Origin: an uncultured Mycobacteriaceae bacterium
GTDB taxonomy: Bacteria; Actinomycetota; Actinomycetes; Mycobacteriales; Mycobacteriaceae
Assembly (NCBI GenBank): GCA_902826815.1
Contig: CADEGF010000029.1
Coordinates: 18,742 to 82,741 of the forward strand
Length of the DNA stretch: 64,000 nucleotides
Reading direction: 5' to 3'
How positions within the stretch are numbered: position 1 is the stretch's first letter; the number at the start of each line of letters is the position of its first letter. Shown here in pieces: positions 39,783 through 63,362 of this stretch. Made by a program: the position numbers and the translations under genes. The notes below the pieces were generated by a model, which was not told the origin of the DNA, ran no database searches, and saw nothing but the letters and a program-made list of their open reading frames with translations.

Positions 39783-40637
39783 TCAGGCTGTCGTCACCCA
39801 TCGGAGCCCGCCGACCACGACATTGCCCGCCATCTTGATGACCGTTGCCTCGACCGGAGGGACGTACGGCAACCACAACGGCGCGCGCGCCCATGCGGGC
39901 AGCATCGAAATCGAGGTCGCTGCGATGACACCGTATGGTCCCCGCATCACCAACGGCAGCGGAGGCGTCAACAACAGGAACCTGGCGGCATCCCGGGCCG
40001 ACGCAGTGCCGCGAAGCTCGGGGCGGAAGTCGGAGATCCGTTGCCGCAGTTGTTCTTCGGTGCGCGGAGGATCGGCCACACCGAGCGCTTCTGCGACGCG
40101 GGCGGTGTCGGCCACATAGCCGTCGCGGCCCTCCTGGTCGAACGGTGCCGCCCCGTACCGCTGGTACGCCTGCAGGAAGCTGTCGACTTCGGCGATGTGC
40201 ACCCACTCCAGCAGGTGGGGATCCGATGCGGCATAAGGCGTCCCGTCGGGCGCCACGCCGTGCACCCGGCGGTGAATCCCGCGCACCTTGTCGACTGCAC
40301 GCTGCGCGTCGTCGGCCGTGCCGAAGGTGGTGACCGCAAGAAAGGTGCTGGTGCGCTGCAGTCGCCCCCATGGGTCTCCGCGGTAGTCGGAGTGGTCGGC
40401 CACCCCGGCCATGGCGAGCGGGTGCAGCGACTGAAACAGCAGCGCCCGCAGTCCGCCCACGTACATCGAGGCGTCTGCGTGTACCTGCCGGATCGGACGC
40501 CCTTCGGCGAACCACCGCGGGCCAGGCGTGTCGTGGATGCGCGCCCTGTTGTCGGCGCCGTCGGGCCCCGCGATCAGGCCGAAGAGCGCGCGGCCCAAGC
40601 CGGCACGCACTCCGCCCAGGTCGGCCAACAGGCTCAT
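39783..40637 (-). CDS. MpaB-like oxygenase (DUF2236 family)
   Basis: A 284-residue DUF2236 protein, the family of MpaB/latex-clearing-type haem oxygenases. Diagnostic parts are RQVHADASMYVGGLRALLFQSLHPLAMAGVADHSDYRGDPWGRLQRTS, FGTADDAQRAVDKVRGIHRRVHG and DPHLLEWVHIAEVDSFL, with conserved histidines that can hold haem. ATG 40637 is used rather than the longer Arg-rich frame. Divergent from an ECF41-like sigma factor gene 44 bases away, so it is the prime candidate target of that sigma factor. Confidence 0.85.
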   Translation of the reverse strand: MSLLADLGGVRAGLGRALFGLIAGPDGADNRARIHDTPGPRWFAEGRPIRQVHADASMYVGGLRALLFQSLHPLAMAGVADHSDYRGDPWGRLQRTSTFLAVTTFGTADDAQRAVDKVRGIHRRVHGVAPDGTPYAASDPHLLEWVHIAEVDSFLQAYQRYGAAPFDQEGRDGYVADTARVAEALGVADPPRTEEQLRQRISDFRPELRGTASARDAARFLLLTPPLPLVMRGPYGVIAATSISMLPAWARAPLWLPYVPPVEATVIKMAGNVVVGGLRWVTTA

Positions 40638-40681
40638 ACCTTCGACGGTACCGCCACCGCGCCCTGTGTTTGGATGACCGC

Positions 40682-41575
40682 GTGGCCGGCGGCGACGCGT
40701 CATCAGCTGACCTGGATCAAGCGACGGCGGAGTTCGTCGCGGTCCGAGGGCGCCTCTTCGGCATCGCCTACCGCATGCTCGGAACCCGGACTGAGGCCGA
40801 GGACATCGTTCAGGACGTCTGGCTGCGGTGGCAGCGCTACGACCGGAGCAAGGTCATCGAACCGGCCGCCTTCCTGGCGACGACGACGACACGGCTGTGC
40901 ATCAACGCCCTGCAGTCGGCCCGGGCACGCCGCGAAACCTACATCGGCCCGTGGCTTCCCGAGCCAGTCGACACAAGTGCCGATCCCGCCCTCGGTGCGG
41001 AGCGTGGCGAGGCACTGGAGTTGGCGACGCTGATGCTCCTCGAAAGGCTCACTCCCACAGAGCGGGCCGCCTATGTGCTGCGCGTGGCGTTCGACTATCC
41101 CTACGCCCAGATCAGCCAGGTATTGGAGATCGAGGACGACAACGCGCGTCAGCTCGTCGCCCGCGCACGTAAGCACATTGCGGCAGAGCGGCGGGCACCG
41201 GTCGATTCAGCGGAGCAGAAGCGGCTACTTGAAGCGCTTGTGGCGGCGGCCCAACAGGGCGATCTGCAGCGACTGGAGAGGCTTCTCGCCGAGGATGTCG
41301 TCAGCTACACCGACGGCAACGGAATGCGCAGCGCCTCACGCGTCGCGGTACACGGCAGGCAGACGGTGGCCAAGTTCCTGCGCGCGTTCGCGCCGAACTT
41401 CTGGCCCGGCACTTCGCTGTCCTGGATCGAGGCGAACGGCTGTCCCTCAGTGCTGATCTCGCGCGAGGGCGCTGTCGTCGGCCTGCTGGCATCGAGTGCG
41501 TCCGCGGACGGAATCGAGCAGTTGATGTGGGTATTGAGTCCCGACAAGTTGAGCGGTTTCGCCGGCCCTCGGTAG
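40682..41575 (+). CDS. ECF41/SigJ-like RNA polymerase sigma factor with SnoaL-like C-terminus
   Basis: A 297-residue extracytoplasmic-function sigma factor. Region 2 is FVAVRGRLFGIAYRMLGTRTEAEDIVQDVWLRW, region 4 is LTPTERAAYVLRVAFDYPYAQISQVLEIEDDNARQLVARARKHI. A C-terminal domain of about 120 residues (LLEALVAAAQQGDLQRLERLLAEDVVSYTDGNGMRSASR) is the SnoaL-like extension of the ECF41 group, where the DGGGK-type loop tunes activity; here it reads TDGNGMRSAS. GTG start at 40682. ECF41 factors usually have no separate anti-sigma and switch on the adjacent oxidoreductase gene. Confidence 0.9.
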   Translation: MAGGDASSADLDQATAEFVAVRGRLFGIAYRMLGTRTEAEDIVQDVWLRWQRYDRSKVIEPAAFLATTTTRLCINALQSARARRETYIGPWLPEPVDTSADPALGAERGEALELATLMLLERLTPTERAAYVLRVAFDYPYAQISQVLEIEDDNARQLVARARKHIAAERRAPVDSAEQKRLLEALVAAAQQGDLQRLERLLAEDVVSYTDGNGMRSASRVAVHGRQTVAKFLRAFAPNFWPGTSLSWIEANGCPSVLISREGAVVGLLASSASADGIEQLMWVLSPDKLSGFAGPR

Positions 41576-43717: not shown

Positions 43718-43800
43718 ATTCTGCGGCCAAGTCGGCCGGCAAGTCGCAGGTTCGGTGAGATAGGGCGCGGAACACAGTCCCTTTACCCGATCTTGACCAC

Positions 43801-46800
43801 GTGTTGAATCGGCCCATCAACGATGGTCGAGTGACTACGCTTCAAGCGGTGGAGCTGCGGGTTTTGGGACCTCTGCAGGCCCAACAGGGCGGCGCGCCGG
43901 TGGCGATACCCGGCGCAAAACCGCGCGCCATCCTCACCATGCTCGGGCTGCACGGCGGCGCGATCGTGTCGGCCGACACGCTGATCGAACTGCTGTGGGG
44001 TGATGACCCCCCACGCACTGCGGCCAAGGCCCTGCAAACCCACATCTCCGCTCTGCGGCGCACCCTCGGCGACGGTGTCGTCTTGACGCTGGGAACGGGT
44101 TGGACCCTGGCCGACACCGAGGTCGACGCATCGCGGTACAAGGTGGCGGCGAGACTCGGCCGTGACGCCGCTGCCGCAGGCAATACCGCCGAGGCGGTGG
44201 CAAGTTTCGAGGAAGCGCTTTCGCTGTGGCGCGGTGTCCCCGAACTGCCCGATGGCCAGCGCGGGTCATCGGAGAAGACTCGCTGGATCGAGGCGCACGC
44301 CGCCCTTGTCGAGGACAGGGCGGATGCGTTGCTTGCGACGGGCCGTGCGGCGGAGATCGTCGGCGAACTCGAGGCCGCGGTCTCCGATGCACCGCTTCGC
44401 GAACGACGCTGGGGCCAGTTGATGCTCGCGCTCTACCGCGCGGGCAGACAAGGTGAAGCGCTCGGCGCGTACCAACGGGCGCGATCCCTGCTGGCCGATC
44501 AGTTGGGCGTCGACCCCGGCCCGGAACTCCGACGCCTAGAAGCTGCCATCGTCGGCCAGGACGCGGCGCTGGATACGCCTGTGGCACAGCAAGCGTCGAG
44601 CGTCACCAGGGCGGTGACCTTCCTGCTGACCGACATCGAGGGGTCGACTGCTGCATGGGAGGCCGACGCCGACGCCATGGCCGCGGCCCTCGCGCGCCAC
44701 GACGAGCTCGTCGAACACGTCGTGACATCGCGCGGCGGGCGGCTGATCAAGACACGCGGCGAAGGCGACGCCACGTTCTCGGTCTTCGATCGGCCATCGG
44801 CGGCGGCCGCGGCGGCCATCGAGCTACAGGACGCGATCGCCCACGAACCGTGGACGTTGGGTGAGCCGCTGCGCATCCGGGTGGCGTTGCACACCGGCGA
44901 GGTCGAACTGCGCGATGGCGACTATTTCGGTCGGGCTGTCAACCGCGCTGCGCGCCTGAGGTCACTGGCCGCGGGTGGCCAGATCCTCTGCTCAGGTGCG
45001 ACGGCCGAGCTTGTCGTCGACTCGCTGAGCGACGACGTCGTGCTCGCCGATCTCGGTGTGCGCCAGCTGCGCAACCTCGCGCGACCTGAGCATGTGTTCG
45101 AACTCCGGATGCAAACCGACGACGAGGAACTGGCGACGCGTGCGGATGAGGCGCCCGTCGAGCGGCCCGATCTGCCCGCGGTCCTCACCGGCCACGGGCC
45201 GTTCGTCGGCCGTGGCCAAGAGCTCCAAGCGCTTTCGGCGACGTGGCAGAGCGCTCTCACCGGCAGCATGCGGGCGGTGCTGATCGCGGGCGAGCCCGGT
45301 GTGGGCAAGACGCGTCTCGCCGGCGAGTGGTCCCGCCAGGCCTATGAGCAGGACGCTGCCGTCCTCTACGGCCGTTGCGATGAAGATCTCGGGGCGCCGT
45401 ATCAGCCGTTCGCAGAAGCGCTTCGCTCGCTTGTGCCATGCCTCGCTGCGAGCAGGCTGCGCGGCTTGCGGGGCGTAGAGGCACTTCTGCCGCTGGTACC
45501 GGGCCTCACCGATGTCCTGCCCGACCTCGCCGCGCCGACGCGCGCCGACCCGGACACCGAACGCTATGCACTGTTCGACGCGGTCGTTGCGCTGTTGGAA
45601 TCCGCCTCGGTAAGCGCGCCGGTCATCCTGATACTCGACGACCTTCATTGGGCGGCCAAATCGACCCTGCTGTTGTTGCGGCATCTGCTGCGCTTCGGCG
45701 ACCAGGCGCGCGTGCAGATCGTCGGCACGTACCGCAGTACCGATCTCGACCGCTCCCATCCGCTTGCGGCGATGCTCGCCGACCTCCACCGCGACGGCAC
45801 CGCCGAGCGGCTGGCACTCAGCGGGCTCGATGAGGACGACGTCACGACATACGTCGCCGAGGCCGGCTACGACGACGAAGAGCTCGGCCGGGCCCTGGCT
45901 TCGGTCACCGGCGGTAACCCGTTCTTTCTCATCGAGGCGCTGCGGCATGTCGATGAAAGCGGAGGGGTGTGGGATCAAAGCACCCTGCCGCAGGGTGTGC
46001 GCGAAGCCGTGAGCCGCAGGCTTTCTCGGCTGCCCGCTGAGACCAACAAGGCACTGGCCGCCGCGGCGGTCGTCGGCAGCCGGTTCGCGGTCGACATGGT
46101 CGAGCGCGTCATCGACCAGGACCTCGTCGATGCGTTCGATGAAGCGTGCAAGGCCGGAATCGTCATCGAAGAACCGGGCGGCCGCTATCGCTTCAACCAT
46201 GCCTTGATCCGGCAGTCGTTGCTCGCCGAGCTGCCGTCCGTGCGCCGGATGCGGCTACATCAGCGCATCGCAACGACTTTGGAGAACAAGCCCGGCGCCG
46301 ACGACGAGCTGCTGGCCGAGCTGGCCCACCACTACTTCGAATGTGCGTGGGCAGGTAACGCGGCCAAGGCCGTCGAATACTGCAGGCGGGCCGCCGACCA
46401 GGCGATGGCCCGGCTGGCGTACGAGGGCGCCGCCGACCTGTACGACCATGCGCTCCACGCGCTGGAGGAGATCGACGACGAGCTACCCGATCGCGAAGAC
46501 CAGACGACCGAGTTGCTCGTCGCGCGCTGCGAAGCGCTCTTGGCTGCGGGGGACGTGGCTTCGGCGGCGGGAGCGGTGACGCAACTGCAGGAGGCGACGC
46601 GCGACTCGGCCCGGATCGCGGCGTGGGCGGCGTGTTACGACGGCCAATTGTCGATGCTTGTTCATCCCGACCGTTTGGACGCCGTCGAGTCGACGGTCGG
46701 TGCGGCAGCGGACACCCTCGCCGAATTACGTGATGCCGCAGGCGAAGCCAAGGCGCACACGGTCCGAGCACTGGCGCTGGGCCGACTCGGCAGAATCGGT

Positions 46801-49800
46801 GATTCCGAGATCGCCTTGGATCGCGCGCTCACCGCCGCGCGACGCGCGCGTGAACATCGTCGGGTGAACGCCGTGCTCGCGGTCGCGCCACTCGCGGCGC
46901 TGTGGGGCCCCAACCCGGTTCCGCGCGCGGGCGGACGTTGTCTTGACGTGGTACGTCTGCTCCGGATCACAACCGACTCCCCCGCAGTCGAAGCGACGTC
47001 AACACGGTGTCAGGCCGTGCTGGAGGCCTTCCGCGGGCGCGAATCCGCTGCCCGACGGATGATCGACTCCGCCCGCCGCACGGTCAGCGAGCTAGGTCTG
47101 CGTCATGCGCTGCTCGAGGTCGAGCAGTTCGCTGGCATCGTCGAGTTGGTCGTCGATGATCCTTCCGCGGCTGAGCCACATCTGCGTAAGGCCTACAACG
47201 GCTTTCGCCGGATGGGCCTCGATGCAGACACCGCCGAGACCGCGGCACTGTTGGGCCGAGCGTGTTTGGCGCTTGACCGTGACGCCGAGGCCGATGAACT
47301 GTGTTCGGAGAGCGAGCGACTCGCCGGGCACGCGCTCAAGGCGTCGATCGCATGGCGCACGCTGCGCGCACATCTGCTGTCGCGGCGTACTGACCACAAC
47401 GGGGCTATACAGGCTGCGGAAGCGGCGATCGCTCTTGCCGAGCGCACCGATGCGTTGGTCGATCACGGCGATGCCTGCCTGGCGCTCGCGACGGTGCTAG
47501 GCGCAGCCGGCGACGCCGCCGGTAGTCGAGCGGCGGCCGGACAAGCCGTCGACCTGTACGAACGGAAAGGCGCAGCGGCGCTTGCCGATGGAGCACGGGC
47601 CGTACGCGGGCAGGACACACAGCGACCCGCCCCGGCGTCGAAACAAGCCGGACACGTGCCGACCAACGAAGTGGTGCGGGTCGGCGACCGGCTGATCTCG
47701 GCCGTGAATCGCAAAGCCTGGGACGAGGTCGAGCGACTTTTTGCTCCTGAGGTACGGATCGAGAGCCGTCGCAAGATCGTGGGTTTCGCGAGCATGAATG
47801 TTCCGGCTCATCAGTGGCCTCGCGAGATGAGCCGTTACTACGACGCGGGCATGGAGCAGTACCGCCACACGTCTGTCGAGGTGAGAGGCGAACGCCTTGC
47901 TCTGTTTCGGATCGAGGCGCGCACAGCCGACTCGAGTCCAGGAGCACCGCTTGACGAAATGCTCGAGGTGATCAGCATCAACGCTGATGGACTCATCGCG
48001 CAGCAAGTTTGGTTCGACCTCGACGATATGGACGCCGCGATCACTGAACTCGATGCTGCCTACGCCGCTCTCGAGGAAGCGACGCGGGCGCCTCGACTCG
48101 AGAATGCGGCAAGCCGAATGTACGAACGGTTCAAGGCCTGCTACGCGTCGCGGGACATGGACACGCTCGCCGAGATCATTGCCGACGACATCTGCACCGA
48201 TGACCGCCGACGCGTCGTGAACGCCGGTGTCCGGAGGGGCCGGGAAGCGGCGATGGCAGAGATCGTGTCATTCATTGAGGTCGGCGCTCTCGCAATGTCC
48301 TTCGATGTCACAGCGACTCGCGGAGATCGACTTATCCTGAACCGCTCTCGAATCCAGGCCTGGGATCAGCGGAGTGACCTGCTGGACACCGAGGTGATCG
48401 AGATCATTGAGATCGACGCCGACGAACGCTTGGTGCGACGCGTGCTGTTCGACACCGACGATATCGACGGGGCATCCACCGAACTCGAAGCCCGCTATCT
48501 GGCAGGCGAAGCCGCTCCGTTTGCGGACACATGGTCGGCGGTCGCAGAGGCTTATGCCTCACTCCACCGACACAGACTGCCCGCACTCGCACCTGACTTT
48601 GTGGACATCGACCACCGATCTCTGGCCCCAATCGGTTCGGGTGATCTCGTCGCATACATCGGCGCTGCAATGAATGACCTCGCGCCCGGCGCGACCATGC
48701 ATGTCGAAGCCGTACAACGGCTTAGCGATCTCGGGGCGGTCATCTCTCATTCCGCGCACGGCGTCACACCCGAAGGCGTGGACGCGGAGTGGCGCATGAT
48801 GATCGTCGTCACGGTGGCCGGCGAAGCCCTCAGTCGCGTCGAAATCTTCGATGAGGTGGACCTTGATGCCGCGCTCGCCCGGTTCGAAGAACTGCATCCG
48901 CACGAGCGACGGCTGGAAAACGCGGCCACCCGTGTGAGTCACCGATATGCGATGGCTTTCGCTTCCCGAGATTGGGTCGCCGTTTCGGAGCTACTGGCCG
49001 ACGACTTCTGCATCGACGATCGCCGGCCGACTGTGAACGGGGGGATCCGACTTGGCCGCAAGACGGCGATCGAAGATCTACAAGCGGCGGCCGGTGTCGG
49101 CTTCGCGGAAGCGACGGGGTTCACCCTCGCCACCAGGGGCGAGCGGCTCGCCCTGACCCGGGCCCATTTTTCCGGCGACGGTGAGGAACCGTTCGAGAAC
49201 GAACTCCTCAACGTCATCGAGATCGACGCCGATGAGCGGATGGCGGCGGTCGTTGTGTTCGAAACAGACGACGTCGACGCAGCCTTGGCGGAGCTCGATG
49301 CTAGATACCTGGCGGGTGAGGCGGCACCGCACGCAACCACGTGGTCACTCATCGCGGAGGCCTACACGACGCTCAACGCCGGCGGGTTTCCGCCTGCCGC
49401 ACCCGATTACGCCATCGTCGACCATCGTCTGCGTACGACGATCGAGGCTAGCGGCTTTGCCGACTACATGGACGCCTCGCGGAAGCTCACACCGAACCTT
49501 CACATGTATGTAGAGGCCGTGCACCGACTGAGTGATGTCGGCACAGTCGTCACGCACGGGGCAAGAGGAACCTCGACAGACGGATTCGACGCCGATTGGC
49601 GGATCGTCGAAATCCTGACGGTCGAAAACGGCTTGTGTAAACGTTGCGAGCTCTTTGAAGAGGCGGACCTCGACAAGGCGCTCGCGCGGTTCGATGAGCT
49701 GCAACCAAAGACGAGGAAGCTGGAGAACGCGGCGAGTCGAGCCTACGAGCGCGCCTTCAGGTATTTCGAGGCGCGGAACTGGGCCGCGATGGCGGACGCA

Positions 49801-52800
49801 ATGGCGCCGGACGTATGCGACGACGACCGCCGCCGCGTTGCGAACGGTGGCGTGCAGCGCGGCCCAGATCATGTGATCGCGAATTCGCAGAATGCCGCCG
49901 CTCTCGGTGCGACGAGCATCTCGCTGAACCTCATCGCGGTCCGGGGAGATCGACTCGCCCTCTCTCGCCTGTCCTTCTTCGGCCCAGATCCGGCACCCGA
50001 TGCCTTCCATGCTGACGTGCTTGCCGTTGTCGAGATCGACAATGACGAGAAGTTCACCGCATACGTCGCATTCGACTCGGACGACTTCGATGCTGCTGTC
50101 GCAGAACTCGATGCGCGCTACATGTCCGGCGAAGGCGCCGCATACGCGCACACGTGGTCGGTTGTAACGAAAGCTCATGCGGCGTTCAACCGACGCGAAC
50201 TTTTCTCGCCCACACCGGAGTTGCTCGACCATCGTCCGGTCGTAACAGTTCACGCGGGAGAACCGGCCGACAACATCCGCGACATGTGGGAGTTCACGCC
50301 AGACCTCACGATTTACATCGAGACCGTGCATCAACTGAGTGACCACGGAGCGGTCCTTACGCAGGCTTCGCATGGCACATCGCAAAAGGGCTTCGAAGCT
50401 GAGTGGAGGGTCGTCGAACTCATCGCCGCCGAAGGTGACCTAGTAACCCGCTGCGAATTGTTCGAAGAGACCGATCTCGATACCGCGCTCGCCCGGTTTG
50501 AGGAATTGCATCCGCAGAAGCGCCGGCTCGAAAACGCGGCAAGCCGAATGCTCGCGCGCTTCCTGCCGCACTTCGCGACCCGCGAATGGGAAGTCATGGC
50601 GGAAATGCTGACCGCGGACATCAGCCTGGACGATCGGCGGCGCGTGATCAATGGCGGGGTGCTACGGGGTCGAAACACGGAGATGGCGAATGTGCGCGCG
50701 ATCGCTGACGCCGGAGTTACAGAGATGAAGTCGACTCCCGTTGCGACGCGCGGGGAACGCCTAGTTCTACATCGTCTCAGCTTTTACGTCCCCGAATGGC
50801 CCGAGGAACAGAACCACGAAATACTCGAGGTCGTAGAAATCACCGTCGACGGCCTCGCCTGCCTTCACATCGCATTCGACCCCGACGATTTCGATGCTGC
50901 CGTTGCCGAACTCGACGCACGCTACATGGCCAGCCAAACGCCCGACGAGGCGCGCATATGGTCAGTTGCCACCCGAGCTCAGGCGGCACTCGATCATCGA
51001 CGCCAGTTGCCTCATGTCAAACCCGGCTGGGTGAACATCGATCACCGCCACGGGATCAGTTTTGCGCCCGGCGATATGACTATGTACGTCCGGGCGGGGT
51101 GGGGGCACTTCACAAATGCGATCGGGTACATCGAGATCGCGCACGCGATCAACGACCGTGGAGCGGTTTATGTCAACGTTTTCAATGGTTCGTCATTAGA
51201 AGGGTTCGACGCGGAGTGGCGGTTTGTCGAACTGATGATGGTCGACGGTGATCTCATCAGCCATGTCGAGTTATTCGATGAGGACGACCTCGATGCCGCC
51301 CTTGCCCGATTCGACGAACTTTCTCGACCGCGGCTGGAGAACGCCGCGACACGGTTATCCGAGCGTCTCTGTGCGTACTTCGCGGATCGCGCCTGGGACA
51401 CGATGGCGCAGTCGATGGCCGACAGCATCTGCAGTGATGATCGGCGTCGCGTGGTCGGCGCCGGGATTCGACATACAAGAGCCGCCGCGGTCGAAGACCT
51501 GCGGGCGATCGCCGACGTCGGGTTCACCGACGTAGCGATGACTACGGTTGCTACCCGCGGACATCGCTTGGCGCTCACACGCAACTACTACTCGGGTCGG
51601 GAACAGGGACCGCTGCCGTTCCACGCCGAGTCAGTCGCCATCCTCGAGATCGACGCCGACGATAAGCTGGCGGCGGCTATCGTCTTCGATCTTGACGAGA
51701 TTGACGCTGCTTTCGCCGAACTGGAGGCGCGCTACCTCGCCGGCGAGGCAGCCCCACATGCCAGCTGTTGGTCATCCATCACCGAAATATGCACTGCACT
51801 TAACCGTCGCGAACTTCCCGAGACAACGGTGGATTGGGTTACCCTCGACCATCGCCGAGGGGCCTCGACCGCGCCGGGCGACTGGACCGCGGACATCCGT
51901 GCCGCCTACCAACAAGCACCGGACATCGGTTTTCACATCTCAGCCGTACATCGACTTTCCGATGTCGGAGCAGTCATGACTGGGACGGCAGACGGCACGT
52001 CGCGAGAAGGCTTCGAGGCCGAATGGCGACTTCTCGCTCTGTTCATGGTCAACGATCACAAGGTCAGTCGTGTTGAGATTTTCGATGAGGACGATCTCGA
52101 TGCTGCGCTTGCCCTGTTCGACGAAGTGGCCGAGCAGAAGCCGCGGCTGCACAACGAGTCGACGCGAATATGGGAACGGACAGCCGACGCGTTCAACCGT
52201 CGCGATCTGGCCGGATTTCTCTCGCTTTCGACCACAGACGGCTCGACGGTCGACAGGCGGAAGGGTCTTCATTCTGAAGTGAAGGGGAACGCGAGGCGAA
52301 AGGGCCTTCAAGCGGTGCTCGATGTTTCGCCAGCCAGCTGGCGCTTGTTCACCGCGTCCATCGCAATCAGGGGCACGCGCCTCTCGCTGACTCGAGTGGA
52401 GTGCGTGGATTTCGGCCTGGACGACCGTCCGGCAACGGCTGAGCTGTTGGTCGTCATGGAAGCCGACAACGGGCTCACACACAACATCGTGTGTTTCGAC
52501 ATCGACGATATCGACGCTGCTTTCGCCGAACTTGATTCCCGCTACCTCGCCGGCGAAGGGGCCGTCCACGCGCACGCCTGGTCTATCGTCGCGGGCGCCT
52601 ACGCAGCTCTGAACTCTCAGCAGCTTCCCGCACGGACCACAGACTGCGTGATGGTCGACCGTCGGTCGTCGATCTCGTACGAAGGCGACGGCGCGCAGTT
52701 TCTCAACGCCACATGGGAAATGACTTCCGACATCGCTTTTCGCATCGAGGCGGTGCATCGCCTTACCGATCTCGGAGCGGTGGTCGCCTTTAAGTCCTAT

Positions 52801-52986
52801 GGAACGTCGGAGAAGGGATTCGCTGCCGAATGGCGAGCGCTCAACATTCTGACCATCGAGGGCAACCTGATCAGCCGCGGTGAGATCTTCGACGAGTCCG
52901 AACTCGAAACCGCCCTGGCCCGGTTCGACGAACTCGGCCGACAGGCACCCGAGAATCCTGGGCACGGGCAAATCTCCGAATCCTGA
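43801..52986 (+). CDS. Giant SARP-cyclase-ATPase-TPR protein with 13 NTF2-like repeats
   Basis: One uninterrupted frame of 3061 codons. Residues 15-110 are an OmpR-type winged helix (VELRVLGPLQAQ; AALRRTLGDGV region) and 110-255 the BTAD helices, as in SARP regulators. Residues 268-440 are a class III nucleotidyl cyclase: metal Asp278 and Asp323, Lys317, Asp374, Asn381 and Arg385 are all kept. Residues 467-780 form a STAND-type ATPase, Walker A GEPGVGKT (497-504) and Walker B LILDD (Asp613, Asp614). Residues 840-1270 are TPR-like. From 1286 to about 3050 there are 13 tandem NTF2/SnoaL-like modules. GTG 43831 is an alternative start ten codons in. Cytosolic, soluble. Domain order is clear; the function (ligand-gated cAMP-making regulator) is inferred. 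Confidence 0.92.
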   Translation: MLNRPINDGRVTTLQAVELRVLGPLQAQQGGAPVAIPGAKPRAILTMLGLHGGAIVSADTLIELLWGDDPPRTAAKALQTHISALRRTLGDGVVLTLGTGWTLADTEVDASRYKVAARLGRDAAAAGNTAEAVASFEEALSLWRGVPELPDGQRGSSEKTRWIEAHAALVEDRADALLATGRAAEIVGELEAAVSDAPLRERRWGQLMLALYRAGRQGEALGAYQRARSLLADQLGVDPGPELRRLEAAIVGQDAALDTPVAQQASSVTRAVTFLLTDIEGSTAAWEADADAMAAALARHDELVEHVVTSRGGRLIKTRGEGDATFSVFDRPSAAAAAAIELQDAIAHEPWTLGEPLRIRVALHTGEVELRDGDYFGRAVNRAARLRSLAAGGQILCSGATAELVVDSLSDDVVLADLGVRQLRNLARPEHVFELRMQTDDEELATRADEAPVERPDLPAVLTGHGPFVGRGQELQALSATWQSALTGSMRAVLIAGEPGVGKTRLAGEWSRQAYEQDAAVLYGRCDEDLGAPYQPFAEALRSLVPCLAASRLRGLRGVEALLPLVPGLTDVLPDLAAPTRADPDTERYALFDAVVALLESASVSAPVILILDDLHWAAKSTLLLLRHLLRFGDQARVQIVGTYRSTDLDRSHPLAAMLADLHRDGTAERLALSGLDEDDVTTYVAEAGYDDEELGRALASVTGGNPFFLIEALRHVDESGGVWDQSTLPQGVREAVSRRLSRLPAETNKALAAAAVVGSRFAVDMVERVIDQDLVDAFDEACKAGIVIEEPGGRYRFNHALIRQSLLAELPSVRRMRLHQRIATTLENKPGADDELLAELAHHYFECAWAGNAAKAVEYCRRAADQAMARLAYEGAADLYDHALHALEEIDDELPDREDQTTELLVARCEALLAAGDVASAAGAVTQLQEATRDSARIAAWAACYDGQLSMLVHPDRLDAVESTVGAAADTLAELRDAAGEAKAHTVRALALGRLGRIGDSEIALDRALTAARRAREHRRVNAVLAVAPLAALWGPNPVPRAGGRCLDVVRLLRITTDSPAVEATSTRCQAVLEAFRGRESAARRMIDSARRTVSELGLRHALLEVEQFAGIVELVVDDPSAAEPHLRKAYNGFRRMGLDADTAETAALLGRACLALDRDAEADELCSESERLAGHALKASIAWRTLRAHLLSRRTDHNGAIQAAEAAIALAERTDALVDHGDACLALATVLGAAGDAAGSRAAAGQAVDLYERKGAAALADGARAVRGQDTQRPAPASKQAGHVPTNEVVRVGDRLISAVNRKAWDEVERLFAPEVRIESRRKIVGFASMNVPAHQWPREMSRYYDAGMEQYRHTSVEVRGERLALFRIEARTADSSPGAPLDEMLEVISINADGLIAQQVWFDLDDMDAAITELDAAYAALEEATRAPRLENAASRMYERFKACYASRDMDTLAEIIADDICTDDRRRVVNAGVRRGREAAMAEIVSFIEVGALAMSFDVTATRGDRLILNRSRIQAWDQRSDLLDTEVIEIIEIDADERLVRRVLFDTDDIDGASTELEARYLAGEAAPFADTWSAVAEAYASLHRHRLPALAPDFVDIDHRSLAPIGSGDLVAYIGAAMNDLAPGATMHVEAVQRLSDLGAVISHSAHGVTPEGVDAEWRMMIVVTVAGEALSRVEIFDEVDLDAALARFEELHPHERRLENAATRVSHRYAMAFASRDWVAVSELLADDFCIDDRRPTVNGGIRLGRKTAIEDLQAAAGVGFAEATGFTLATRGERLALTRAHFSGDGEEPFENELLNVIEIDADERMAAVVVFETDDVDAALAELDARYLAGEAAPHATTWSLIAEAYTTLNAGGFPPAAPDYAIVDHRLRTTIEASGFADYMDASRKLTPNLHMYVEAVHRLSDVGTVVTHGARGTSTDGFDADWRIVEILTVENGLCKRCELFEEADLDKALARFDELQPKTRKLENAASRAYERAFRYFEARNWAAMADAMAPDVCDDDRRRVANGGVQRGPDHVIANSQNAAALGATSISLNLIAVRGDRLALSRLSFFGPDPAPDAFHADVLAVVEIDNDEKFTAYVAFDSDDFDAAVAELDARYMSGEGAAYAHTWSVVTKAHAAFNRRELFSPTPELLDHRPVVTVHAGEPADNIRDMWEFTPDLTIYIETVHQLSDHGAVLTQASHGTSQKGFEAEWRVVELIAAEGDLVTRCELFEETDLDTALARFEELHPQKRRLENAASRMLARFLPHFATREWEVMAEMLTADISLDDRRRVINGGVLRGRNTEMANVRAIADAGVTEMKSTPVATRGERLVLHRLSFYVPEWPEEQNHEILEVVEITVDGLACLHIAFDPDDFDAAVAELDARYMASQTPDEARIWSVATRAQAALDHRRQLPHVKPGWVNIDHRHGISFAPGDMTMYVRAGWGHFTNAIGYIEIAHAINDRGAVYVNVFNGSSLEGFDAEWRFVELMMVDGDLISHVELFDEDDLDAALARFDELSRPRLENAATRLSERLCAYFADRAWDTMAQSMADSICSDDRRRVVGAGIRHTRAAAVEDLRAIADVGFTDVAMTTVATRGHRLALTRNYYSGREQGPLPFHAESVAILEIDADDKLAAAIVFDLDEIDAAFAELEARYLAGEAAPHASCWSSITEICTALNRRELPETTVDWVTLDHRRGASTAPGDWTADIRAAYQQAPDIGFHISAVHRLSDVGAVMTGTADGTSREGFEAEWRLLALFMVNDHKVSRVEIFDEDDLDAALALFDEVAEQKPRLHNESTRIWERTADAFNRRDLAGFLSLSTTDGSTVDRRKGLHSEVKGNARRKGLQAVLDVSPASWRLFTASIAIRGTRLSLTRVECVDFGLDDRPATAELLVVMEADNGLTHNIVCFDIDDIDAAFAELDSRYLAGEGAVHAHAWSIVAGAYAALNSQQLPARTTDCVMVDRRSSISYEGDGAQFLNATWEMTSDIAFRIEAVHRLTDLGAVVAFKSYGTSEKGFAAEWRALNILTIEGNLISRGEIFDESELETALARFDELGRQAPENPGHGQISES
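47656..52950 (+). repeat. 13 tandem NTF2/SnoaL-like modules, alternating A and B types
   Basis: An initial divergent module (47656) is followed by six A-B pairs. A modules start at 48091, 48910, 49717, 50524, 51331 and 52144 with (R/K)LENAASR and contain DDRRRVVNGGV..G, ATRGERLALTR and FDxDDxDAAxAELDARYLAGEAAP. B modules start at 48520, 49330, 50146, 50947, 51757 and 52567 with HATxWS and contain VDHR, VHRLSDVGAV and GFDAEWR...LARFDELxP. Pairs are close to 810 bases long, so the array grew by duplication of a pair. The last A module has lost the DDRRRVVN core (it reads TVDRRKGLHSEV). Confidence 0.88.
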
Positions 52987-55243: not shown

Positions 55244-55400
55244 GCAAGGAATCGTCCGTGCAAGCCGGGCGTGAGCAGAATGCGGTAAAGGCGTAGATCG
55301 CCGCTTGTGCGAGTTGTGCGCACAAGCGCGAACTGCTGGTCAGACGCACGTAGCTTCGGTCTCAATCGCTACAGCCGTGACGCCAGCAAGGAGTTCGATC

Positions 55401-57767
55401 ATGTCCGTTGAGTCCGCGACCGGTATCCAGCACGATCCCGCGATGCAGGAGATGCCAACGGCCGTACTGCCGTGCGCTCAAGCGCTCATGCCGTCGATCC
55501 CCGGCCCGGCCCTCGACGTGCGATGGCAATCGTTGCAACGCAGATTTCAACCGGGCCGCGACATCGTGGTCGGACGCGACCCACAGGCCGACATACGCGT
55601 CGAAAGCCCGCTGATTTCCCGCGTGCACCTGATCATGCGATTCGTCGATGGTCGCTGGGTCGCGGTCGACAACGGAAGTCTCAACGGCATGTTCATCGGC
55701 GGCCGCCGCATGTCGTCCGTCGTGATCACCGACGGTCTCACCATCAACATCGGCGAACCCGACGGCCCACCAATGACATTCGGCGTGGGGCGAGCCGCCG
55801 GTCGTGCTCCCGCTCCGAAATCGACACCGCCGCGCCGCCAGCCGACCATCTCAGGGGCGATGACGGTCGGTCGCACCCCCGACAACGACATCGTGGTTGC
55901 CGACGTCCTGGCCTCACGCCATCACGCAATGCTTGTTCCGACGGACGGGACCATGGAGATCCGCGACGCCGGAACCCTCAACGGCACGTTCGTCAACGGC
56001 GTCCGCATCGAGGCCGCGCCGTTGCGCGAGGGCGACGTGGTGACGATCGGAAATCTCGATCTCGTCTTCAGTGCGGGCACGTTGGTCGGCCGCAGCAAGA
56101 CCGAGACGGCGCCCCAAACCGGCGGCCTGCAGGTCCAGGGCGCCACCCTGACGATCGAGCAAGGCCGCACCCTGTTGGACAACATCACGTTCTCGGCTCG
56201 GCCCGGGACGCTGACCGCGGTGATCGGACCGTCGGGCGCGGGTAAGTCGACGCTCGCGAAACTGATCGCCGGGGCGACGGTGCCGACGCAAGGCCGAGTG
56301 TCGTTCGAGGGCCACGACATTCACGGCGCGTATGCGTCGTTGCGCAGTCGAATCGGTCTGGTGCCGCAGGACGATGTGGTGCACAGCCGGCTCACCGTGG
56401 ACCAGGCACTGAATTACGCCGCGGAGTTGCGGTTACCGCCGGACACCACCAAGGAAGACAGGCGCCAGATCGTTGCGCAGGTCCTCGAGGAGCTTGAACT
56501 GACCCCGCACGCGAACACGCGCGTCGACAAGCTCTCCGGCGGCCAGCGCAAGCGTGCGTCGGTGGCGATGGAACTGCTGACAGGTCCGTCGCTGCTCATC
56601 CTCGACGAGCCGACGTCCGGGCTGGATCCTGCGCTGGACCGGCAGGTGATGGCGATGCTGCGCAAGCTCGCCGACGCGGGCCGGGTCGTCATCGTGGTGA
56701 CCCACTCCCTGACTTATCTGAAAGTGTGCGACCAGGTCGTGCTGCTGGCCCCGGGCGGCAAGATCGCATTCAGCGGGCCACCCGCCGATGTCGAAACGGC
56801 GATGGGCACGACAGATTGGGCCGACATCTTCAGCGACGTCGCCGCGAATCCCGATGCGGCGCACGGACGTTACGTTGCACGCACAGGCCCATCGCCCGCC
56901 CCGGCGCAGACTGAGAAGCCGGCAGATCTGGGCAAGCCCGTCCAGACCAGCTTTGTGCGGCAGTTCTCCACGATCGCCCGCCGTCAGCTGCGGCTGATCC
57001 TGTCCGACCGTGGCTACTTCGTGTTCCTGGCCTTGCTCCCATTCATTCTGGGTGGGCTGTCGTTGGCGGTTCCCGGGAATGTGGGATTCGGGATACCCAA
57101 CCCGATGGGTCTCTCCCCGGACGAGCCGAGCGAGATTCTGGTGCTGCTGAACATCGGCGCGGTTTTCATCGGAATCGCCCTGACGATCCGCGATCTCATC
57201 GGTGAGCGTCCGATATTTCGCCGTGAGCAGGCTGTCGGGCTGTCGCCTTCGGCGTATCTGCTCGCGAAGGTGGTGGTGTATTGCAGCGCCGCCGTGATCC
57301 AGGCGGTCGTCATGGTCGGGATCGTTCTGTACGGCAAGAACGGGCCGACGCGCGGCGCGGTGCTCCTGCACAACGCGCCGTTCGAGTTGTTCGTCACGGT
57401 GGCAGCCACCTGCGTGGCGTCGGTGATCCTCGGCCTCGCACTGTCCGCGCTCGCCCGTTCCAACGAGCAGATCATGCCGTTGCTGGTGGTGGCGATCATG
57501 GCGCAATTGGTGCTGTCCGGCGGACTGCTCCCGGTCGCCGCCCGGGTGGGGCTCGAGCAGTTGTCGTGGGTCACCCCGGCACGTTGGGGCCATGCCGCCG
57601 CGGCTTCGACCGTCGACTTGCGGGTGCTGGAGCCCGCCCCGGGTCCACAGGATGCCCACTGGGCGCACGTGCCTGGCGCATGGCTGTTCGATATGGCGAT
57701 GCTGGCCGCGCTGTGCCTTGTCTACGGAAGCTTCGTTCGGTGGAAGCTGCGCCTGAAGGCCAGCTGA
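55401..57767 (+). CDS. FHA-domain ABC transporter, Rv1747-like
   Basis: A 788-residue exporter half. Two FHA domains (VVGRDPQADIRVESPLISRVH...GSLNGMF near residues 50-120; MTVGRTPDNDIVVADVLASRHH...GTLNGTF near 155-230) bind phosphothreonine. The ABC ATPase follows: Walker A GPSGAGKST at 276, signature LSGGQRKR at about 375, Walker B LLILDEPTSGLD. Six C-terminal membrane helices end in the permease. ATG 55401 has AAGGAG eight bases upstream. Rv1747 is controlled by the kinase PknF and affects glycolipid export, so a similar link to a Ser/Thr kinase is expected. Confidence 0.93.
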   Translation: MSVESATGIQHDPAMQEMPTAVLPCAQALMPSIPGPALDVRWQSLQRRFQPGRDIVVGRDPQADIRVESPLISRVHLIMRFVDGRWVAVDNGSLNGMFIGGRRMSSVVITDGLTINIGEPDGPPMTFGVGRAAGRAPAPKSTPPRRQPTISGAMTVGRTPDNDIVVADVLASRHHAMLVPTDGTMEIRDAGTLNGTFVNGVRIEAAPLREGDVVTIGNLDLVFSAGTLVGRSKTETAPQTGGLQVQGATLTIEQGRTLLDNITFSARPGTLTAVIGPSGAGKSTLAKLIAGATVPTQGRVSFEGHDIHGAYASLRSRIGLVPQDDVVHSRLTVDQALNYAAELRLPPDTTKEDRRQIVAQVLEELELTPHANTRVDKLSGGQRKRASVAMELLTGPSLLILDEPTSGLDPALDRQVMAMLRKLADAGRVVIVVTHSLTYLKVCDQVVLLAPGGKIAFSGPPADVETAMGTTDWADIFSDVAANPDAAHGRYVARTGPSPAPAQTEKPADLGKPVQTSFVRQFSTIARRQLRLILSDRGYFVFLALLPFILGGLSLAVPGNVGFGIPNPMGLSPDEPSEILVLLNIGAVFIGIALTIRDLIGERPIFRREQAVGLSPSAYLLAKVVVYCSAAVIQAVVMVGIVLYGKNGPTRGAVLLHNAPFELFVTVAATCVASVILGLALSALARSNEQIMPLLVVAIMAQLVLSGGLLPVAARVGLEQLSWVTPARWGHAAAASTVDLRVLEPAPGPQDAHWAHVPGAWLFDMAMLAALCLVYGSFVRWKLRLKAS

Positions 57768-58522: not shown

Positions 58523-59566
58523 TCATAGAAGTCCTAGGCGCGCCGCTTCTGCGACAGCTGCCGACCGCGACGTGCGCCCGAGCTTGCGGCGAATGTTGGC
58601 AACGTGGCGGTGGACGGTATGCGAGCTCAGCACCATCTGCTCGGCGATCTCGCGGTCGCTCAGACCCCGCGCGACGCAGGCGAGGATCTCACGTTCGCGT
58701 TCGGTCAGCAGGGTCGGTTCCGTCTCGCTCGGGTGCTGCGACGGGGTCTTCTCCGGCACCAGCGCTTCGCGGCACGCGCGGGCCACGGAATCGACGTCAC
58801 CGTGCCACGGGAAGTGCGCGCTCCCCTGCAGCGGGATGAACGTCGCGCCGGGAATCGCGGCGGCGACCTCACGGCCGAGCCGGAACGGGATGGCGCGGTC
58901 ATCGCGACGATGCACGACCGTTGTCGGTGCCCGAACACCGGCAAGACAATCCCGTACGTCAAGACGGTAGACGAGAGCGAGCAGTGCAGCGGCGGTCTCC
59001 GCGGTCGCCGCCTCCCGTTGCAACCGCGCGAAGCGTTCATGGTCCGCGGCGTCGGCAGCACCCAGGAAGATATCGCTGAGCATGCGCGCGCCCAGTCCCC
59101 AGTGGGCACGCACTGCCCCGATGATCGCGTCGCCCACTCCCGGTGGCGTGATCTCCGCGCCATCGGGGTATGAGCCGTACAGAACCAGGCGCTCCACCCG
59201 CTCGGGATACGTTGCGGCGAAGGCGATTGCGGTGCAGCTTCCGCACGAGCCGCCGACGAACGTCACGCGATCCAGCTCGAGCTCGTCGAGGAGCGCGCGC
59301 AGCGTCGCCACTTCTTCGTCGATGGTCAGATCCGACTCGTGGACTTCGCGGTCCGACATGCCGACGCCGAGCCGGTCGTAGCGGATCAGCGTGTAGCCGT
59401 CCGCGACGCCTTCCCAGAATCGCCGAAAGTCTGTGCTCTGCCAGTCCAGTTCGAGATGGCTCACCCACCACGCCGGTGCGACGAGCGGTGGCCCGTCGCC
59501 GCGCAACTCGTACGCCACGCGCCTGGCGCCGAGTGGAAGGAACCGGATCTCGGAGTTGTCGAGCAT
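58523..59566 (-). CDS. Alpha/beta hydrolase fused to a LuxR DNA-binding domain
   Basis: A 347-residue one-component regulator candidate. Residues 1-265 are an alpha/beta hydrolase: nucleophile in VGGSCGSCTAI (GxSxG), Asp in VVHRRDDRAIPF, His in QGSAHFPWHGD. Residues 285-347 are a LuxR/GerE HTH (LTEREREILACVARGLSDREIAEQMVLSSHTVHRHVANIRRKLG). ATG 59566 is favoured over GTG 59572. The enzyme-like half probably binds or hydrolyses a signal that controls DNA binding. Related fusions occur in actinobacteria; no regulon is known to me. Confidence 0.88.
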   Translation of the reverse strand: MLDNSEIRFLPLGARRVAYELRGDGPPLVAPAWWVSHLELDWQSTDFRRFWEGVADGYTLIRYDRLGVGMSDREVHESDLTIDEEVATLRALLDELELDRVTFVGGSCGSCTAIAFAATYPERVERLVLYGSYPDGAEITPPGVGDAIIGAVRAHWGLGARMLSDIFLGAADAADHERFARLQREAATAETAAALLALVYRLDVRDCLAGVRAPTTVVHRRDDRAIPFRLGREVAAAIPGATFIPLQGSAHFPWHGDVDSVARACREALVPEKTPSQHPSETEPTLLTEREREILACVARGLSDREIAEQMVLSSHTVHRHVANIRRKLGRTSRSAAVAEAARLGLL

Positions 59567-59590
59567 CGCCACGAGCGTACGACGGCAACC

Positions 59591-61973: not shown

Positions 61974-63362
61974 GTGGCATCAGTTGGTTCGGGCACCGCG
62001 ATCGAGTACGAAACGCTGATTTGGGACGCGCCCGCGGAGGCGGGCTACGGGCTGGCAGACCTACGTGCCGCCCAGCGGCAAGCCGGGAAGTACGACGCCG
62101 CGGTCCCCGCTTCCATCGCCGAACTAGCCGTCGCGCTGCCCGCGGCAGTGCTGGCCGACGCCGAAGAAGCAAGCAACGAGATCACTCGTTTCGACGCTGA
62201 GCTCGGCGACGAAATTGCGCCCTTCTCTGCCGTGCTGCTGCGATCCGAATCAGCCGCAAGCTCGAACATCGAAAACCTCACGGCATCAGCGAGGGCCATC
62301 GCCGAAGCCGAAGCCCTCGGTGACACAAGCCGTCGCAATGCCGCCCTGATCGTGTCTAACACCGAGGCGATGAAAGCGGCCGTTGCGCTGGCCGACCGAC
62401 TCGACCAGAACGCGATCCTTGCCATGCATGCCGCGCTGATGCGTGACAGCGATCCCGTCTCGGCCGGCCATTGGCGGACTGAACAAGTTTGGATCGGCGG
62501 CGGAAACTTCGGTCCCCGCGGCGCCGACTACATCGCCCCGCATCAAGCGCGCGTCCCCGACACAATTGCAGACCTGATCGCCTTCACCCGTCGCACCGAC
62601 GTGCCCACACTCCCCCATATCGCTATCGCGCACGCTCAATTCGAAACCATCCACCCCTTCACCGACGGCAACGGTCGCACCGGGCGAGCACTGATCCAGG
62701 CGATGCTGCGCCATAAGCGACTCACCCGGCAGATCACCGTGCCCGTGTCGGCCGGGCTGTTGACCGACACCGATGCCTACTTTGGCGCCCTGGGATCCTT
62801 TCGTGACGGTGATCCCATCCCGATCGTCGAGCGCCTTTCGGAAGCGTCGCTACTTGCGGTCGCAAACGGTCGCCAGCTCATTGCCGACCTCAGGTCACTC
62901 CGCGAAGACTGGAATGCAAGGATCATCGCCCGCCGCGACTCAGCTGTGCACCGCGTCGCTGACCTACTCATCAAGCACCCAGTCTTCAACGCGCAACTGC
63001 TTCAACGCGAACTCGGCATCAGAACTGGAAATGCACGCCGATATGTTGACCCGCTGGCCGAGGTCGGAATCATCGTCGAATTCACCGATCGCGCACGCAA
63101 TAGAGCTTGGCGCGCACCAGAGGTCTTGAGCGCTCTTGACGCGTTCGTCGTGCGCGCCGGACGTCGGAACGATGTGCCGACCCCGAGCGGAATGGGAAGC
63201 GGAACTCGGCAAGGCCAAGAAGGCCCGCGAATACGGCATCCCCATCATCAACGAGGAAGCGCTCACCCGCCTGCTAGAACTCAGCCAAGTCAGCGGGTAG
63301 CCGAACGATCGGCGCTCCCAGCAGCATCGGGATTGAGAATGTACAACCCCGCGATCGTCTGA
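61974..63362 (+). CDS. Fic-family AMP-transferase with C-terminal winged helix, 3' end altered
   Basis: Residues 80-110 hold the inhibitory helix motif SSNIEN (Ser96 to Asn101; Glu100 blocks the site), so this is a class II Fic protein. The catalytic loop HPFTDGNGRTGR begins at His227. A winged helix follows at about 325-395 (VADLLIKHPVFNAQLLQRELGIRTGNARRYVDPLAEVGIIVEF). Family members normally end near residue 400 (ALDAFVVRAGRR); here about 65 unrelated residues follow to a stop at 63362, overlapping the opposite gene by 73 bases. Modifies proteins by AMPylation; target unknown. Probably autoregulated through the inverted repeat. Confidence 0.88.
   Translation: MASVGSGTAIEYETLIWDAPAEAGYGLADLRAAQRQAGKYDAAVPASIAELAVALPAAVLADAEEASNEITRFDAELGDEIAPFSAVLLRSESAASSNIENLTASARAIAEAEALGDTSRRNAALIVSNTEAMKAAVALADRLDQNAILAMHAALMRDSDPVSAGHWRTEQVWIGGGNFGPRGADYIAPHQARVPDTIADLIAFTRRTDVPTLPHIAIAHAQFETIHPFTDGNGRTGRALIQAMLRHKRLTRQITVPVSAGLLTDTDAYFGALGSFRDGDPIPIVERLSEASLLAVANGRQLIADLRSLREDWNARIIARRDSAVHRVADLLIKHPVFNAQLLQRELGIRTGNARRYVDPLAEVGIIVEFTDRARNRAWRAPEVLSALDAFVVRAGRRNDVPTPSGMGSGTRQGQEGPRIRHPHHQRGSAHPPARTQPSQRVAERSALPAASGLRMYNPAIV
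63172..63300 (+). pseudogene. C-terminal fragment of a BRCT domain
   Basis: In a different frame from fic, bases 63187-63297 read EWEAELGKAKKAREYGIPIINEEALTRLL, the last helix and tail of BRCT domains found at the C-terminus of DnaQ-like exonucleases and DNA ligases. An in-frame ATG at 63172 would give only 42 residues. The fragment is joined directly to the fic 3' end, replacing the fic stop, so it marks a recombination scar. Family call by eye. Confidence 0.6.

Follow-up and report, generated by a model that had tools for sequence, protein, structure and literature searches.

A giant mycobacterial SARP-cyclase-STAND protein with a conserved head, a mosaic array of NTF2/SnoaL-like modules and a nearly private putative operator

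What kind of regulator is encoded by a single gene that joins a DNA-binding SARP head to a long chain of NTF2/SnoaL-like modules, and how is such a gene controlled and diversified? The question is raised by the plus-strand reading frame at 43801..52986 of the 64,000-nucleotide stretch of mycobacterial DNA analysed here (the window), which is uninterrupted over 3061 codons and ends in a TGA stop, as a first-pass annotation had claimed. The reading that we favour, and consider fairly probable, is that of a stand-alone, self-regulated STAND switch of the SARP-LAL type carrying a recombining sensor array. It is carried directly by the architecture of the protein, by an operator pattern and its restriction to this gene, by the contrast between a conserved core and a mosaic array, and by a second family built on the same plan.

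Profile searches bore out the domain calls made earlier for the head: Pfam models matched Trans_reg_C at residues 40-91, BTAD at 108-250 (E 1.1e-37), Guanylate_cyc at 269-405 (E 1.5e-9) and AAA_16 at 467-640 (E 4.6e-28), and SnoaL_2 was matched in four stretches (E 6.5e-17). Residue numbers of domains and modules refer throughout to the 3061-residue frame starting at 43801 (Table 1). Among solved proteins, the SARP domain matches EmbR (2fez, E 5.9e-37) and AfsR (8hvr, E 8.4e-35), and both ATPase motifs are present in every head compared, Walker A as GEPG[VI]GKTRL and Walker B as DDLHWA (78/78 each). The TPR region that had been described between ATPase and array was recovered in part: TPR_12 profiles match in relatives, whereas the window protein gave no TPR Pfam match, and the label for residues 761-1270 is accordingly a tentative one, given from position and these weak profiles. 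A C-terminal LuxR-type helix-turn-helix was also sought, and no GerE match up to E 1 was found across the whole window protein.

Self-comparison of the window protein revealed a period of 269-272 residues, the repeating unit being a pair formed by an A-type and then a B-type module; six such pairs (A1B1 to A6B6) follow a lone A-type module, A0, giving the 13 tandem modules counted previously and ending at residue 3051. The pairs share 35-48% identity with one another, and Tandem Repeats Finder returned 0 rows on the array DNA because the module copies have diverged too far, with no recent DNA duplication among them. The SnoaL_2 profile matched 52 of 57 A0-B2 segments, each scanned as a whole five-module segment and not module by module, and by such Pfam profiles the modules are assigned to the NTF2-like/SnoaL superfamily. 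Charged signatures are kept per module type (e.g., DDRR, DHR, RGeRL), and a comparison of the A and B profiles aligned 40 columns at E 8.2e-5, a weak indication that both types are likely of common descent. It seems highly improbable that the modules are enzymes, that is, SnoaL/LinA/limonene-epoxide-hydrolase-like active sites in tandem whose substrate or product the regulator reports. Most of them do hold conserved polar motifs, and their Pfam neighbours are SnoaL and SnoaL_4, with LEH in the sister family described below; nevertheless, profile matches to solved enzymes were insignificant (best E 0.25, limonene epoxide hydrolase), and no linked pathway genes are widely shared among the loci.

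The gene is not unique to the window, and the family is present in many mycobacterial species. Of 297 genomes sampled in the genus, at least 136 were matched by the array part (at least 134 among the 275 of good quality); each of these held one to eleven matches, the window's own genome a single one, and at least five of the 136 carry the sister family instead. When two pairs were searched across the taxonomic family, 16 of 301 genomes matched, every one of them from the home genus (1 of 31 genera). Since one genome per species was sampled, the comparisons address differences between species. In a first set of twenty loci (up to 20 kb each, from 19 genomes) the order SARP-cyclase-STAND-TPR-A(AB)n was found with n from 5 to 15, three loci having one additional A close to the start or the end; the exceptions were L033, with a split frame, and L043 and L047, which are cut. 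A second set came from a scan of genome contigs that yielded 243 relatives, from which 79 named loci were kept, and 76 of these provided 77 usable genes. Carriers include M. kyorinense, M. interjectum, M. scrofulaceum, M. colombiense, M. asiaticum, M. genavense, and Mycolicibacter and Mycolicibacterium species. A strict A0(AB)n arrangement, with n from 2 to 12, was observed in 45 of the 69 complete genes (the window gene included), while in the remaining 24 A0 is present two to four times, a partner is absent or an end is broken; n = 15 is reached in incomplete frames. Counting modules in mycobacterial homologues, as had been suggested, thus gives n from 2 to 15 among the relatives. These loci also make it very unlikely that the frame or its array is an assembly artefact, a concern raised by the first-pass annotation, because the same architecture occurs in other genomes of the genus, some on single multi-megabase contigs, and in 76 of the 79 named loci, the remaining three being cut or split.

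Some copies have the frame split in the head or array (L064, L094, L101, L117, L121, L137 and L186 from G100, plus those in G101 and G077), so that either some species are losing the gene or the assemblies are flawed. At L113 and L069, two array genes or heads stand in tandem at one site.

Head and array have evolved at different rates. Identity to the window protein among 19 relatives is 0.74-0.84 for SARP, 0.83-0.92 for the cyclase, 0.83-0.88 for STAND and 0.75-0.86 for the TPR region, against just 0.43-0.54 for A0, a single-copy module compared at the same slot. In the ten closest gene pairs, the ratio of nonsynonymous to synonymous substitution rates (dN/dS) is 0.06-0.12 in heads and 0.19-0.24 in module pairs above 75% identity, dS being broadly similar in both and one gene pair having a single qualifying module; the array is therefore under constraint, looser than that of the head. 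Positive selection as the average mode of the array was rejected on these ratios; at some array positions amino-acid changes far outnumber silent ones, among pairs that are few and non-independent. Relaxed decay is not favoured either, the modules being in frame and under purifying selection, although broken copies exist.

Close relatives expose how arrays change, and their arrays are mosaics in which identity switches at module junctions. L107 (M. sp. E183, n = 9) and L126 (M. scrofulaceum E3039, n = 7) have heads 96.5% identical and collinear arrays, in which pair 1 of L126 corresponds to the A of L107 pair 1 joined to the B of L107 pair 2, and pair 3 to the A of L107 pair 4 joined to the B of L107 pair 5; close to the A/B junction, nucleotide identity between them drops from about 90% to 55-60% or so. 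L072 and L083, both labelled M. colombiense, present a swap of the reverse kind, with A0 58% and heads 95.4% identical. Among 41 high-identity tracts between genes of head identity at least 0.88, 31 of 34 starts and 30 of 32 ends lie at module edges (the last 30 or first 15 residues), where a uniform distribution would place about a third, an enrichment that is biased because the junction sequence itself is conserved. Where both halves of an A-B pair had matches above 75% in the ten close gene pairs, the partner was kept in 21 cases and changed in 3. Horizontal exchange as the main source of modules was rejected for this sample, in which genes with head identity below 0.86 were connected by just two tracts (250 nt or longer, 90% identity or more); donors may lie among unsampled lineages.

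That lineages rebuild the array alone favours a role in recognition, and the serious rival is a scaffold that tolerates change. There, the array would be a structural spacer or oligomerisation scaffold whose NTF2-like modules pair to set distance or valency, the signal would enter elsewhere (TPR region or nucleotide state), module number would drift by unequal crossing-over, and divergence would follow from few surface residues being of importance. We regard this as rather unlikely on balance. It accommodates the spread of n from 2 to 15 over a conserved core, the duplication of A0 in some genes, a constraint about two to four times looser than that of the head, and the limitation of high-identity exchange with distant lineages to 2 tracts; it fits less well with purifying selection on the modules (dN/dS 0.19-0.24), the exact A0(AB)n phase in 45 of 69 complete genes, the charged signatures retained by each module type (DDRR, DHR, RGeRL), and the recurrence of the core-array asymmetry in a second family. 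The sensor-array reading, which the earlier annotation had framed as a multivalent array on an inducible STAND switch, fits the data in that the array, and not the head, varies between species.

How the gene is controlled bears on where it starts. The first in-frame start codon, a GTG at 43801, falls inside a conserved putative operator, and the likely true start is the GTG at 43831, six bases after a -10-like box. We aligned 72 of 78 upstream regions (six were dropped, three without the anchor string and three under 500 bp), and a single conserved segment emerged, in which TTTAC, CTTGACC and TTGAAT follow one another at 11-bp steps and are succeeded, after 8 bp, by GACGAT and then GTG. The repeats are mostly 90-100% conserved and the bases between them vary, which indicates selection rather than mere closeness of the sequences. 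In the AfsR study, the rule given for SARPs is a spacing of 11 or 22 bp between direct repeats and of 8 bp between the 3' repeat and the -10 element (PMC10936776), and the PimR footprint is described as three heptamers with 4-bp spacers (PMC3367932), a pattern of heptameric direct repeats and 4-bp spacers that is likewise present, as sequence, in the 72 aligned promoters. In mycobacteria, a GTG at the transcript 5' end is stated to be enough for translation, and nearly a quarter of transcripts to be leaderless (PMC4633059). The gene probably has its own leaderless, SARP-driven promoter, and would regulate itself with a positive sign. The earlier view of SARP-STAND proteins as inducible regulators gains support from a textbook-spaced operator pattern on the gene's own promoter. 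In one relative (L213, G075, minus strand ~922-975) the operator is doubled in tandem, as two overlapping matches 25 bp apart.

The putative operator appears nearly private to this gene. Searched with up to three mismatches, the 27-base pattern had one site in the window's genome, at the array gene. The search of 198 genomes in the genus listed 115 sites (62 exact, 25 with one mismatch, 7 with two and 21 with three); because a reversed control pattern gave 16 matches, the two- and three-mismatch sites are, as a group, near chance. The 87 sites with at most one mismatch lie in 77 of the 198 genomes, 74 of which also match the array; in the other three, G047 and G147 have SARP-head fragments at contig ends, and G045 has lost the gene. 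Two genomes serve as an internal control: G092, whose array gene is of the SARP-less sister type, has 0 operator sites, and G011, with both gene types, has a single one, at the SARP gene.

Two loci retain the operator where the giant gene is gone. In G045 (L203, near minus-strand position 861) it is followed by an apparent last-B-module tail and then an S51-peptidase-like gene, and in G037 (L206, 1038-1089) a two-mismatch operator stands directly before an S51-peptidase-like gene; the operator may now drive the peptidase gene in both. An S51-peptidase-like gene is among the neighbours at 16 loci, at one site in a group of species.

The cyclase domain matches PDB 3mr7 (E 1.4e-19) and retains the first cyclase signature, TDIEGST. 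The metal-1 Asp, the substrate Lys and Asp, and the transition-state Asn and Arg, roles that we presume for these residues, are kept in 78/78 heads. An out-of-genus SARP-cyclase protein (L166) shares with the family the GEG in place of the metal-2 Asp, and cyclase activity may be low, altered or absent.

A second family repeats the plan with another head. G011 and G092 encode proteins of 2498 and 2452 residues with a zinc ribbon, cyclase, STAND, TPR and an A/B-like array of period ~275 residues, and a targeted search found the family in 6 of 13 genomes (L160, L161 and L226-L229), with open frames of 1904 to 4095 residues. These proteins resemble the window protein in their cyclase, STAND, TPR and NTF2-like array of variable length; they differ by a zinc ribbon in place of SARP, by a canonical KxxGDG cyclase motif (6/6) and by having none of the operators tested for. 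Relative to L161, identity is 0.74-0.78 in the cyclase, 0.65-0.69 in STAND and 0.76-0.79 in TPR, against 0.43-0.50 in the first module (51 columns in the case of L228), which repeats the contrast between core and array. When one family is compared with the other, the TPR region gives the highest score (~380 bits, with 50-70 bits for STAND), which suggests that TPR and array may have been inherited as one receiving unit. Outside the family and within the same class, G809 (L185) encodes 1940 residues with a zinc ribbon, cyclase, STAND and TPR, plus six NTF2-like modules that do not alternate between A and B types, the zinc ribbon and GDAV motif having been read by eye from the translation; the array plan would accordingly be older than its mycobacterial version. 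Of the 21 matching genomes outside the genus, only G809 aligned into the module region, and the full open reading frames of two others (L187 and L188) held no modules. Searching the phylum with a piece of a sister array gave matches in 3 of 346 genomes, again confined to the home genus.

The statement that no described system has this combination holds for the whole protein and not for its head. SARP, cyclase-like and AAA/LAL parts together form the described SARP-LAL class, of which PimR is the prototype (PMC3367932; review PMC10972967), and by sequence the head seems to belong there, along with PimR, PteR, SanG and FilR of Streptomyces, in having an N-terminal SARP, a cyclase-homologous segment, an AAA/STAND half and no C-terminal LuxR helix-turn-helix. 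The putative operator, known from sequence, resembles the three heptameric direct repeats with 4-bp spacers given for PimR (PMC3367932). As far as the published description of PimR goes, it lacks the N-terminal cyclase signature that the window family keeps, and it acts on pimM, whereas the operator discussed here lies in the gene's own promoter. The window protein further differs from the SARP-LAL class by the 13-module array after the LAL half and by the lack of a biosynthetic cluster around its gene. From its described architecture, PimR to our knowledge has no NTF2-like array. AfsR shares the SARP fold, the operator geometry and the STAND and TPR regions, and lacks both cyclase and array. 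MalT/LAL and NLR-type STAND receptors likewise combine a conserved ATPase core with a C-terminal sensor region; the effectors are here SARP and cyclase, and the sensor is a SnoaL/NTF2-like chain. In the open-access literature we found no paper on a SARP/BTAD-cyclase-STAND-SnoaL/NTF2 combination, most subscription papers falling outside that coverage. Within that coverage, the array with its A0(AB)n order and mosaic evolution, and an operator confined to the gene itself, likewise appear undescribed.

An autoinhibited STAND switch is proposed because, in AfsR, the NOD and TPR parts are reported to inhibit the SARP, and ATP to relieve that inhibition (PMC10936776). In the resting state, the STAND and TPR parts of the window protein would keep SARP and cyclase inactive; the array would recognise something, the TPR region would read this out and free the STAND ATPase, and the latter would bind ATP and might oligomerise. 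SARP protomers would then occupy the three 11-bp-spaced repeats in the gene's own promoter, leading to more leaderless transcription and positive feedback. Class III cyclases work as dimers, so oligomerisation could also bring cyclase domains together to make cyclic nucleotide, the cyclase being either a second output or a dimerisation part. Lineages would rebuild the array by gain, loss and swap of modules at junctions. Autoinhibition, ligand sensing, oligomerisation and cyclase output are the steps that we infer in this scheme.

Several observations weigh against this reading. Ends of high-scoring segment pairs are partly expected at module junctions, and an array dN/dS below 1 leaves diversification by positive selection unsupported as an average. 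The metal-2 position of the cyclase is Glu (GEGD) rather than Asp in 78/78 heads. A looser operator pattern found three sites in the window's genome, two of them weak and without a clear gene start behind, and a further regulon with weaker sites is possible. Moreover, 12 array-matching genomes have no site with at most one mismatch: five belong to the sister family (G042, G092, G166, G175 and G183), G021 has a SARP-type gene whose site carries three mismatches, the G069 genome is 73% complete, and G046, G088, G131, G157 and G185 are unexplained.

The genomic setting is compatible with a stand-alone gene. When neighbouring open reading frames within 7 kb were clustered in the search for shared partner genes, no cluster exceeded 16 of 77 loci (some flanks being truncated), and the nearest downstream gene of 67 complete genes lay on the same strand in 37 and on the opposite strand in 30; an operon or biosynthetic-cluster role as a general rule was rejected on both grounds. 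Against plasmids, the array had 0 matches, and of the head the SARP part alone matched, no record covering 80% of SARP-cyclase. PADLOC models gave 0 families at 1e-5 for the protein, and membership of plasmids or of this defence library was rejected. We consider it quite improbable that the protein serves as a receptor in defence or recognition, in the manner of Avs or other NLR-type STAND proteins, its array sensing phage or competitor molecules and its cyclase and SARP raising an alarm. The conserved STAND core, hypervariable recombining C-terminal repeats and patchy presence would suit such a role, yet besides the PADLOC result the protein lacks a nuclease, a toxin and a membrane effector, and no neighbours are widely shared, this being the sole look at a defence-island setting.

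Table 1. Coordinates of the array gene, its putative promoter elements and the domains and modules of its product
Feature	Position	Strand	Basis or remark
Operator repeat 1, TTTACCC	43782..43788	+	Core TTTAC 98-100% conserved in 72 aligned upstream regions
Operator repeat 2, TTGACCA, 11 bp after repeat 1	43793..43799	+	CTTGACC 90-100% conserved per base
Operator repeat 3, TTGAATC, 11 bp after repeat 2	43804..43810	+	TTGAAT 95-100% conserved per base
-10-like element AACGAT (consensus GACGAT)	43819..43824	+	8 bp after repeat 3; key positions A, A, T 98-100% conserved
Coding sequence, 3051 aa	43831..52986	+	Likely leaderless GTG start, inferred from spacing
SARP domain (OmpR-type DNA-binding part and BTAD), residues 15-262	43843..44586	+	Pfam; EmbR/AfsR sequence matches
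Class III nucleotide cyclase domain, residues 269-440, metal-2 Asp to Glu	44605..45120	+	Pfam, PDB match, motif counts
STAND-type ATPase, residues 463-760	45187..46080	+	AAA_16; GEPGVGKTRL and LILDDLHWA motifs
TPR-like helical region, residues 761-1270	46081..47610	+	Position; weak TPR profiles in relatives
Module A0, residues 1276-1432	47626..48096	+	Self-comparison
Pair A1-B1, residues 1433-1704	48097..48912	+	Self-comparison
Pair A2-B2, residues 1705-1973	48913..49719	+	Self-comparison
Pair A3-B3, residues 1974-2242	49720..50526	+	Self-comparison
Pair A4-B4, residues 2243-2511	50527..51333	+	Self-comparison
Pair A5-B5, residues 2512-2782	51334..52146	+	Self-comparison
Pair A6-B6, residues 2783-3051	52147..52953	+	Self-comparison

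Other genes of the window were recorded alongside. About 2.4 kb upstream of the array gene, 40370-41575 (+) encodes an ECF sigma factor with a C-terminal SnoaL_2-like stretch, which we take to be of the ECF41/SigJ type; such factors also place a SnoaL_2 domain on a transcription regulator, with one domain, no array and no STAND part. Downstream lie a fusion of two FHA stretches, an ABC transporter ATPase and a membrane part (55305-57767, +), an alpha/beta hydrolase joined to a LuxR-type helix-turn-helix (58523-59572, -) and a Fic-domain protein (61974-63362, +).

We tentatively offer, as a possible if doubtful extension, that these proteins are a bacterial counterpart of a diversifying immune-type receptor, in which a conserved core writes chiefly to its own promoter and 5 to 31 NTF2-like recognition modules are gained, lost and swapped at their edges to give a species-specific repertoire. 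For experiments, the putative operator would provide a ready reporter, ligands could be sought with an A-B pair as the defined unit, and comparison with the SARP-less sister family would help to separate the role of SARP from that of the cyclase. If the favoured reading is true, mycobacteria would hold widespread giant regulators, of up to about 5,480 residues, whose switch is kept while their sensor is rebuilt by evolution, and NTF2-like domains would gain a role as tandem, recombining recognition modules.

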